NCBI GenBank assembly: GCA_033344875.1
Contig: JAWPMO010000001.1
Coordinates: 2,071,595-2,135,594 of the forward strand
Direction: 5' to 3'
Source of the DNA: Ilumatobacteraceae bacterium
Lineage (GTDB): Bacteria; Actinomycetota; Acidimicrobiia; Acidimicrobiales; Ilumatobacteraceae
Length of the DNA stretch: 64,000 bases
A program made the translations under genes and the position numbers. Under the pieces are notes generated by a model. That model was not told the DNA's origin and ran no database searches. It saw only the letters and a list, made by a program, of their open reading frames with translations. Every line of letters starts with the position of its first letter. The stretch's first letter is position 1. This document shows, one piece after another, positions 23,743 to 24,843 of the stretch.

Positions 23743-23748
23743 GACGAG

Positions 23749-23754
23749 ATGCTA
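23749..23754 (-). promoter_or_regulatory. -10 hexamer TAGCAT of the LLM oxidoreductase gene
   Basis: Six-base spacer to the ATG at 23742. TTGATA lies 19 bases upstream as a possible -35. Confidence 0.5.
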
Positions 23755-23801
23755 TCAGTAGATATCAACTGGCTATCAAACGGTGATCCGGGTCGCTATC
23801 A
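23751..23801. promoter_or_regulatory. Helically phased direct repeats, probable operator
   Basis: GCTATCA occurs at 23751-23757, 23772-23778 and 23795-23801, with GATATCA at 23761-23767. Offsets are 10, 11 and 23 bases, so all copies face the same side of the helix. They cover both divergent -10 hexamers. MerR-fold regulators of the BldC kind bind such head-to-tail repeats (family knowledge), and the adjacent gene encodes a related domain. Confidence 0.6.
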
Positions 23802-23802
23802 T
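23797..23802 (+). promoter_or_regulatory. -10 hexamer TATCAT of the RHH/HTH regulator
   Basis: Six-base spacer to the ATG at 23809. It overlaps the last GCTATCA repeat, which suggests autoregulation. Confidence 0.55.
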
Positions 23803-23808
23803 CCAAGC

Positions 23809-24156
23809 ATGCCGCCGGCACGAGCGCCCCTCTTCGTCCGACTCTCCGCGCCGCTGCTCGACCAACTCGACGCCCGCATCGAGATCGACGGGCGCACGAA
23901 ACAGGCCGTCGTCGAGGACCTGCTCGCTCGGCAACTCGACGCCCCGGAAGCTCCCGACGACGACATCGTCGACCTCGACGGTGTCGCGGCGATCCTGCGG
24001 GTGGCGCCTGCCGACGTGCTCGACCGGATCGCCGACGGCGACTTCCCCGCCCGACGTTTCGGCACCGAGTGGCGTTTCAGCCGCTCGGCGGTCGGCGCCT
24101 GGCTCCACGGGACCGACACCGTCACCGATCGCCGCACCGGCTTCGCCGCCGACTGA
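23809..24156 (+). CDS. Two-domain DNA-binding protein: ribbon-helix-helix plus MerR-type HTH
   Basis: 115 residues. The first 43 (PLFVRLSAPLLDQLDARIEIDGRT and a VVEDLLARQL helix) fit a CopG/Arc ribbon-helix-helix. Residues 53-100 (DLDGVAAILRV, DRIADGDFPARRFG, EWRFSRSAVGAWL) fit the excisionase/BldC-type winged HTH. The combination in one small protein is unusual. The start at 23809 is set by the TATCAT hexamer. The much longer frame from 22861 is antisense to the LLM gene. It is a plausible regulator of itself and of the divergent oxidoreductase. Confidence 0.75.
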   Translation: MPPARAPLFVRLSAPLLDQLDARIEIDGRTKQAVVEDLLARQLDAPEAPDDDIVDLDGVAAILRVAPADVLDRIADGDFPARRFGTEWRFSRSAVGAWLHGTDTVTDRRTGFAAD

Positions 24157-24168
24157 ACCGCCGACGTC

Positions 24169-24843
24169 TCAGAACAGTGTCGGCTGTTCCGGTCGGTACA
24201 CGCGAGGGCATGCCGTCCACGGCACGTAGTTGTCCATGAAGACCCACGTGCGCCGGTGGATCGCCGACGGGCCGTACCCCTGCAGCGCCGACTTGTGGAG
24301 CGGACACGGGTACCCCTTGTTCGTATCGAACGACCAGTTCGGGTAGCTCTCCGACAGCTCGCGCATCTCACGATCACGGACGACCTTGGCGAGGATGCTC
24401 GCCGCTGCGACGCTCAGGCAGTGCCGGTCGGCCTTGACCCGCATCTCGACGTTGGCCACCGACGGAGACACGAAGTTCCACTTGCCGTCGCTGACGGCCA
24501 CGTCGGGGGTGACGCCGAGACCCTCGACGGCGCGCCGACACGCCAGCTTCTGGGCGTCGGCCATGCCGAGTTCGTCGCATTCCTCCTGCGAGGCCGCCCC
24601 GGTCGACCATGCATCGCACCAGCTCGCGATCCGCTCGAACAGCCGCTCACGCTCTCGTTCGGAGAGCACTTTCGAGTCACGGACGCCGAGCACCCGTCGC
24701 TCGCGTGGCAGGATCGCCGCGCCGACCACGAGCGGACCGGCCCAGGCACCACGCCCGACCTCGTCGATCCCGACCACGGTCTCGAACCCCTTGGCCCACA
24801 TCTCCTGCTCGATCTTGCGGGTGGGTGCCCGGCCGGGTGCCAT
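24169..24843 (-). CDS. rnhB: Ribonuclease HII
   Basis: 224 residues. Catalytic carboxylates are visible: D27 and E28 in GIDEVGRG, D119 in VSDGKW and D139 in KADRHC, followed by the helix VAAASILAKVVRD. The C-terminus has NKGYPCPLHKSALQGYGPSAIHRRTW. It removes the RNA strand and single ribonucleotides from DNA hybrids. It is a single gene converging on the regulator. A TAGCGT hexamer supports the ATG at 24843. Confidence 0.93.
   Translation of the reverse strand: MAPGRAPTRKIEQEMWAKGFETVVGIDEVGRGAWAGPLVVGAAILPRERRVLGVRDSKVLSERERERLFERIASWCDAWSTGAASQEECDELGMADAQKLACRRAVEGLGVTPDVAVSDGKWNFVSPSVANVEMRVKADRHCLSVAAASILAKVVRDREMRELSESYPNWSFDTNKGYPCPLHKSALQGYGPSAIHRRTWVFMDNYVPWTACPRVYRPEQPTLF

Follow-up and report, generated by a model that had tools for sequence, protein, structure and literature searches.

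A small regulator with a probable ribbon-helix-helix part and a BldC-type winged helix-turn-helix, and the conserved boxes in the gap before its gene

In the stretch of DNA analysed here (64 kb, called the window throughout; its genome is a single contig of 4.97 Mb), a small regulator gene and a gene for an F420-dependent oxidoreductase point away from each other across a short gap that holds four repeats. The locus raises the question of which of the two genes these repeats belong to, and which part of a regulator that appears to carry two DNA-binding folds would read them.

Both the intergenic gap of 66 bases (23743-23808) and the open reading frame of 115 amino acids behind it (23809-24156) were verified as the preliminary description had them, together with its four repeats: GCTATCA at 23751, 23772 and 23795 and GATATCA at 23761, at offsets of 10, 11 and 23 bases. 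The heptad GMTATCA occurs six times in the window, four of them in this gap. The hexamer GMTAKC occurs 13 times, and the gap is the sole place in the 64 kb with at least three within 66 bp; among 5,000 dinucleotide shuffles of the gap none reached four boxes (mean 0.29, maximum 3). The product of the divergent gene scores 243.7 bits against the NCBIfam model TIGR03621 (cut-off 213.15), which names no substrate, and 136.9 bits against Bac_luciferase of Pfam. On the other side of the regulator, the gene at 24169-24843, which we take to be ribonuclease-HII-like, is convergent with it both in the window and at locus L010 of genome G007, which belongs to the same genus, so that the two congeneric genomes are syntenic on this flank.

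Table 1. Features of the locus, with positions counted in the window
Feature	Coordinates	Strand	Basis
TIGR03621-family F420-dependent LLM (luciferase-like) oxidoreductase, divergent, 315 aa	22795..23742	-	NCBIfam and Pfam
Putative -10 TAGCAT of the oxidoreductase promoter, 6 nt from ATG	23749..23754	-	sequence, TANNNT; inferred
Box 1, GCTATC (GMTAKC)	23751..23756	.	
Box 2, GATATC (GMTAKC)	23761..23766	.	
Box 3, GCTATC (GMTAKC)	23772..23777	.	
Box 4, GCTATC (GMTAKC)	23795..23800	.	
Putative -10 TATCAT of the regulator promoter, 6 nt from ATG	23797..23802	+	sequence, TANNNT; inferred
Regulator, 115 aa: N-terminal RHH-like domain, short linker, C-terminal BldC/excisionase-type winged HTH	23809..24156	+	
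RHH-like domain, residues 8-44: extended LFVRL, helices 14-27 and 31-44, GRTKQ turn	23830..23940	+	
Winged HTH of BldC/excisionase type, residues 51-104	23959..24120	+	HTH_17 score, fold, profile

The two domains of the regulator

The C-terminal half is a winged helix-turn-helix (HTH). Against the Pfam model HTH_17 the window regulator scores 29.3 bits (cut-off 27), and all 11 orthologues scanned, the window's included, lie above the cut-off with 29.0-42.4 bits. In the AlphaFold model, residues 51-104 align with BldC (6ama) by VIA-align with a Z of 8.2 and an rmsd of 1.7 over 54 residues. BldC is the best PDB match of this domain both by fold and by sequence profile (E 0.0017 for the same residues), with RdfS and Pukovnik Xis coming next among the excisionases in VIA-align. 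The MerR-like winged HTH fold of the BldC family, as defined in the excerpts of PMC5859096, is present in the 6ama alignment. No effector domain was seen in the regulator.

The N-terminal half resembles a ribbon-helix-helix (RHH) domain. The Pfam model RHH_1 (cut-off 20.5 bits) gives 13.2 bits for the whole window protein and 15.4 bits (E 0.018) for its isolated N-terminal domain. It was found below the cut-off in six of 11 whole proteins, the five besides the window's scoring 12.5-18.2 bits, and was unreported in the remaining five; none of the 11 orthologues scanned reached the cut-off. As isolated N-termini, six of 11 match RHH_1 at E ≤ 10, the best, from L010, with 20.2 bits. A profile built from the 11 N-termini matches, in a search among the collected loci, the ordinary RHH protein L013 at E 2.8e-5, and L013 itself is above the RHH_1 cut-off (24.4 bits). 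With RHH_1 below its cut-off, sequence alone gives no proof of the RHH part; the predicted monomer supports it. This second AlphaFold model, computed with 11 sequences (mean pLDDT 74, pTM 0.44), consists of an extended stretch, helices 14-27 and 31-44 and then the winged HTH, with no strand and no ribbon; according to the excerpts of PMC3325190, the ribbon that RHH proteins place in the major groove is made of two strands, one from each monomer. Residues 4-47 align with the RHH domain of PutA (2ay0) at Z 6.6 and rmsd 1.6 over 44 of 44 residues, and the RHH folds of NikR, CopG, AmrZ and Arc give Z 5.6-6.4, the whole range of 5.6-6.6 being middling by VIA-align's own grading. For the first model, Foldseek returned no recognisable RHH entry among the best 50 matches listed and no match at E ≤ 0.001. 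A sequence search of the PDB with the N-terminal profile yielded one unrelated match and no RHH protein, and the N-termini gave weak matches only in PHROGs.

Residues F9 and R11 and the motif GR.KQ are invariant in the 11 orthologues. In the usual RHH pattern the residues at the positions of F9 and R11 face the DNA, and read by this pattern the two would do so here. The N-terminal domain is a probable, not a proved, RHH fold. Of the two DNA-binding folds proposed for the 115 residues in the preliminary description, the HTH stands above its cut-off and the RHH half is probable only, on a sub-threshold RHH_1 score and the model alignment; the structure prediction suggested there as a check for an RHH also came out as probable (PutA at Z 6.6, in a monomer of pTM 0.44).

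Boxes in orthologous gaps

Regulators with both domains were searched for in 149 relatives, 395 genomes of the class, 396 of the phylum and 397 of the order, in overlapping sets with about 11 candidates per genome scored by alignment; this is a partial sampling in which other phyla are barely covered. A profile search for fusions of RHH and HTH_17 had been proposed; besides the window, both parts were matched in 12 further loci of 11 genomes (L010, L011, L026, L027, L028, L036, L053, L054, L056, L057, L058 and L059), all of them, among the genomes sampled, from the same order as the window. The remaining matches had the HTH part only, some with part of the linker, or the RHH part in L013. Two copies of the regulator are broken: two internal stops interrupt L036, and L058 combines two stops with a short open frame. 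The linker between the domains, counted between fixed alignment columns, has 9 residues in the window and 12 in L010; in the remaining nine intact orthologues it ranges from 18 to 46, the longest being that of L059.

No relative emerged when IMG/VR contigs were scanned with the pattern. Seven plasmid records and one phage record matched with 37-60% of the query covered, none with 80%, and two of these eight that were inspected carry the HTH without the RHH-like part; a phage or plasmid origin is therefore not favoured. An open-access literature search for RHH and winged HTH in a single chain gave no lead. The label of a novel regulator class fits less well than that of a new combination of known domains, RHH and BldC-type HTH, seen in one order only among the genomes sampled.

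Twelve gaps are comparable, that of the window and those of 11 further loci. Left out were L058, in which the open frame begins near position 17 of the profile and the preceding 300 bases are free of boxes, and the duplicates of counted loci (L015, L051, L052, L055, L061, L062, L069-L071 and L073-L076). The expected conservation upstream of orthologues was found: every one of the 12 gaps holds at least two GMTAKC boxes, in total 35 against a mean of 4.2 and a maximum of 13 in 5,000 shuffles, which take no account of descent, the 12 gaps being fewer than 12 independent cases (L011 and L026, like L056 and L057, are close relatives). When bases two and five are left free (G.TA.C), 35 of 36 occurrences are GMTAKC, and all four combinations are present (GCTATC 13, GATATC 9, GATAGC 9, GCTAGC 4), the outcome that two half-sites varying independently between GAT and GCT would give. 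The flanks are asymmetric, with T preceding GCTATC in 16 of 22 asymmetric boxes.

The arrangement of the boxes differs between loci. In eight of the 12 gaps (L011, L026, L027, L036, L053, L054, L056 and L057) the central boxes form an inverted pair 8 bp apart, GMTATC-N2-GATAKC, whose first box starts 34-36 bases before the start codon of the regulator; L059 has the 8-bp pair in the opposite facing, together with overlapping boxes 4 apart. The inner boxes are intact in all nine of these gaps, and an additional box, either perfect or with a single change, lies 11-12 bp away on both sides in five, on one side only in L011, L026 and L036, and on neither side in L027. In gaps other than the window's the regulator-proximal box is often one change off (GCTATG, GCTAGG, GCTAGA). 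In the window the steps are 10, 11 and 23, in L010 10, 10 and 11; compared with L010, the distance in the window is longer by 12 bases from box 3 to box 4 and by one base from box 2 to box 3. L028 has two boxes 11 bp apart. Spacing thus varies (8, 10, 11, 12 and 23 bp), with no 9-bp step between boxes. The helically phased direct repeats of the preliminary description are a fair account of the window and its congener L010, with their 10-11 bp arrays, but not of the family, where the core is inverted in eight of the 12 gaps.

Orthologues of the window oxidoreductase (59-72% identity) are held by 13 related genomes, of which 12 gave no regulator match in the search of 149 relatives and G007 has its regulator on another contig. 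Upstream of 12 such unlinked orthologues, 1,440 bp in all, a single box was found (L091, which has no upstream sequence, was left out), and the idea that the repeats are a property of the oxidoreductase promoter was rejected on this ground. Beside the regulator, an LLM oxidoreductase is full-length in nine of the 12 gaps. It is interrupted after about residue 68 in L054, with boxes present; it is a relic in L027 (57.7% identity over 97 residues), where regulator and core are intact; and the divergent position in L010 is taken by a gene, truncated at the end of the contig, for a metallo-beta-lactamase fold, with four boxes present. Since the unlinked orthologues are almost without boxes and L027, L054 and L010 have kept them, the boxes go with the regulator: they are tied to it and not to the oxidoreductase. 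Genome G458 has two copies of the locus, L027, with the intact regulator and the relic, and L036, with a full-length oxidoreductase and the regulator with two stops.

Both regulator-linked enzymes run on NCBIfam, the window's and that of L026, were assigned to TIGR03621. The identity of the window enzyme to the eight full-length regulator-linked ones elsewhere is only 35-40%, which indicates either an old, diverged pair or an exchange of the partner within the same family. A full-length alpha/beta hydrolase gene directly follows the regulator in L011 (656-1456), L026 (1908-2708; Abhydrolase_1, 49.6 bits), L056 and L057. The gene is partial or broken in L036, L054 and L058 and was not found in L010, L027, L028 and L053, while the sequence of L059 ends too early; the hydrolase is a possible hint to the pathway.

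Within the 4.97-Mb genome of the window, the exact pair GMTATCA-N4-GMTATCA occurs once, in this gap. With up to two mismatches there are 16 matches against 8 for a backward control, and four of the 16 lie in one other cluster. This cluster (G000:C1:4801296-4801336, in the window's own genome but outside the window) is a run of GACATCA/GATGTCA heptads at 11-bp steps, perhaps the operator of a different regulator. The inverted core is present in nine of 12 genomes, in seven of them (8 loci) in the regulator's own gap. Elsewhere it was found at eight sites over the 12 genomes, at most two per genome, and the target therefore looks local. All eight of these sites lie within some open reading frame of at least 80 codons, a finding of little weight in DNA so rich in GC; two of them, L065 and L068, are near gene starts. 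At L068 (G000:C1:1288120) the site GATATCTGGATATC is just upstream of a gene whose product starts MKLSEGVEW and is presumably Rrf2-like. With the exact pair unique in the genome and few inverted cores elsewhere, a regulon is not favoured.

Proposed mechanism and alternative explanations

According to the excerpts of PMC3898074, TANNNT is the common -10 element of M. tuberculosis promoters and occurs without a conserved -35. If the -10 is taken to be TANNNT, the earlier statement that the repeats overlap both -10 hexamers is borne out by boxes 1 and 4; a sigma-70 scan of the gap, which also requires a TTGACA-like -35, found 0 promoters against 0.1 in shuffles. Because the putative -10 hexamers lie so close to both start codons, the two divergent promoters are apparently leaderless, and since these hexamers also lie over boxes 1 and 4, both promoters would have to open within the array.

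With moderate confidence, the regulator is considered a local autorepressor, whose RHH dimers on the symmetric GMTAKC boxes would shut off the regulator gene and the divergent gene. Two protomers would dimerise through the N-terminal RHH, and the two-stranded ribbon of the dimer would enter the major groove at the six-base, two-fold symmetric GMTAKC (half-site GMT). The small distances between boxes, mostly 8, 10 or 11 bp, would permit cooperative binding of dimers, which would then cover the stretch where both leaderless promoters must be recognised. As the outer boxes of the window overlap the putative -10s, both genes would be turned off together. The C-terminal BldC-like winged HTH may add affinity, a contact between protomers or a second contact with DNA. 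The RHH is proposed as the reader of the boxes because the box is two-fold symmetric, because the RHH protein Omega offers a precedent, its short boxes forming arrays of mixed orientation across promoters, and because two residues that should face the DNA by the RHH pattern, F9 and R11, are invariant in 11 orthologues. The T preceding GCTATC in most asymmetric boxes makes a one-sided reading, perhaps by the wing, possible as well. The joint control of regulator and oxidoreductase that had been suggested is likely under this proposal, though the oxidoreductase is not an obligatory partner, as the metallo-beta-lactamase fold of L010 demonstrates.

The preliminary description had instead pointed to the polymerisation of BldC-type proteins on head-to-tail repeats, with an RHH that could dimerise or add sequence specificity; in a rival explanation of this kind, the winged HTH would read the boxes head-to-tail and polymerise along direct repeats, with the RHH serving for dimerisation only. 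Such a mode is unlikely. By both structure and sequence, residues 51-104 match BldC best, the 10-11 bp arrays of the window and L010 can be read as direct repeats, and the T-rich flank lies on one side of the asymmetric boxes; however, a one-directional filament leaves unexplained the central pair inverted at 8 bp in eight of the 12 gaps, the box variants fit a symmetric six-mer, and the regulator has an additional N-terminal domain. In the excerpts of PMC5859096, BldC binds direct repeats of 9 bp, AATTXXXX(C), head-to-tail in one direction; such a repeat was not found here, GMTAKC recurring instead at 8, 10, 11 and 12 bp. A BldC-style filament was accordingly rejected as the general explanation, and symmetric boxes read by RHH dimers fit better. 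A related scheme, in which both domains read DNA, the RHH dimers on GMTAKC and the BldC-like heads bridging the dimers, would make the operator grammar follow the length of the linker, this grammar being either the 10-11 bp array or the inverted pair at 8 bp flanked by outer boxes at 11-12 bp. The 10-11 bp arrays do go with the linkers of 9 and 12 residues, yet both short-linker genomes belong to one genus, so that the pattern may be a single event, and L028 has a linker of 23 together with an 11-bp pair; the scheme is judged doubtful.

It is also improbable that the repeats are mainly the TANNNT elements of two divergent leaderless promoters, resembling one another by chance, with the regulator acting elsewhere. 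Such an explanation would suit boxes 1 and 4, each overlapping a TANNNT 6 nt before a start codon, and the frequent single changes in the regulator-proximal box, as if the promoter element alone were kept; for the outer boxes, a role as promoter elements may suffice to explain their conservation. It does not account for the inner boxes, which lie between the outer ones and are intact in nine of nine gaps with the 8-bp pair, for the near absence of boxes upstream of the 12 unlinked oxidoreductase orthologues, or for an exact pair that is unique in 4.97 Mb. Equally improbable is a regulator that activates the divergent gene, with the array as a site of cooperative activation. The boxes of the window overlap both putative -10s, a repressing position, and activation from a position over -10 elements would be unusual. 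The RHH proteins AmrZ and NikR are both able to activate and to repress, according to the excerpts of PMC3325190, which is the point in favour of an activator. With these readings weighed, the most likely picture is an autoregulator that is rare and acts locally, in which two known domains are paired in an unusual way and whose operator is conserved.

Comparison with known systems

A chain that appears to combine two DNA-binding folds, and whose compact operator is common to families of one order, offers a case for how two such folds share one site, and for how operator spacing evolves with linker length. The regulator also offers a route to a possible inducer of a TIGR03621 F420-dependent oxidoreductase.

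Among known RHH proteins, the RHH domain of PutA, NikR, CopG and AmrZ share with the regulator the fold alignment over about residues 4-48 (Z about 6 to 6.6). PutA and NikR combine the RHH with a catalytic or a metal-binding part and are not known to carry a further DNA-binding domain. MetJ is another RHH protein acting on arrays of boxes, and neither Omega nor MetJ is known to have a winged HTH. The Omega/ParB protein of pSM19035 resembles the present case in its short boxes, placed in tandem and mixed orientation and overlapping promoters; in the excerpts of PMC9499535, one Omega dimer binds each 7-bp WATCACW box, in arrays of mixed orientation over promoters. In contrast to the boxes described here, the heptads of Omega are directly end to end and have another sequence.

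BldC of Streptomyces (6AMA/6AMK) has the same type of winged HTH and likewise binds repeated short boxes over promoters. As described in the excerpts of PMC5859096, it has 68 residues, nothing beyond the winged HTH, and many targets, whereas the present regulator carries an RHH-like domain in addition, its boxes are mostly inverted, and its target is apparently local.

A regulator is usually either of the RHH kind or of the MerR/BldC type, and the chain described here appears to hold both. The type V-K CAST systems illustrate the separate use of the two kinds: CvkR, a MerR-type winged HTH repressor translated from a leaderless mRNA, is encoded divergently from its target cas12k and binds a palindrome over promoter elements, other CAST systems have predicted RHH (Arc-like) repressors at the same place, and the RHH and winged HTH kinds are separate proteins there (PMC9938897, in the excerpts cited). 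CvkR differs from the present regulator in dimerising through a C-terminal domain of its own, which is not an RHH, whereas here both kinds appear to be combined in one chain.
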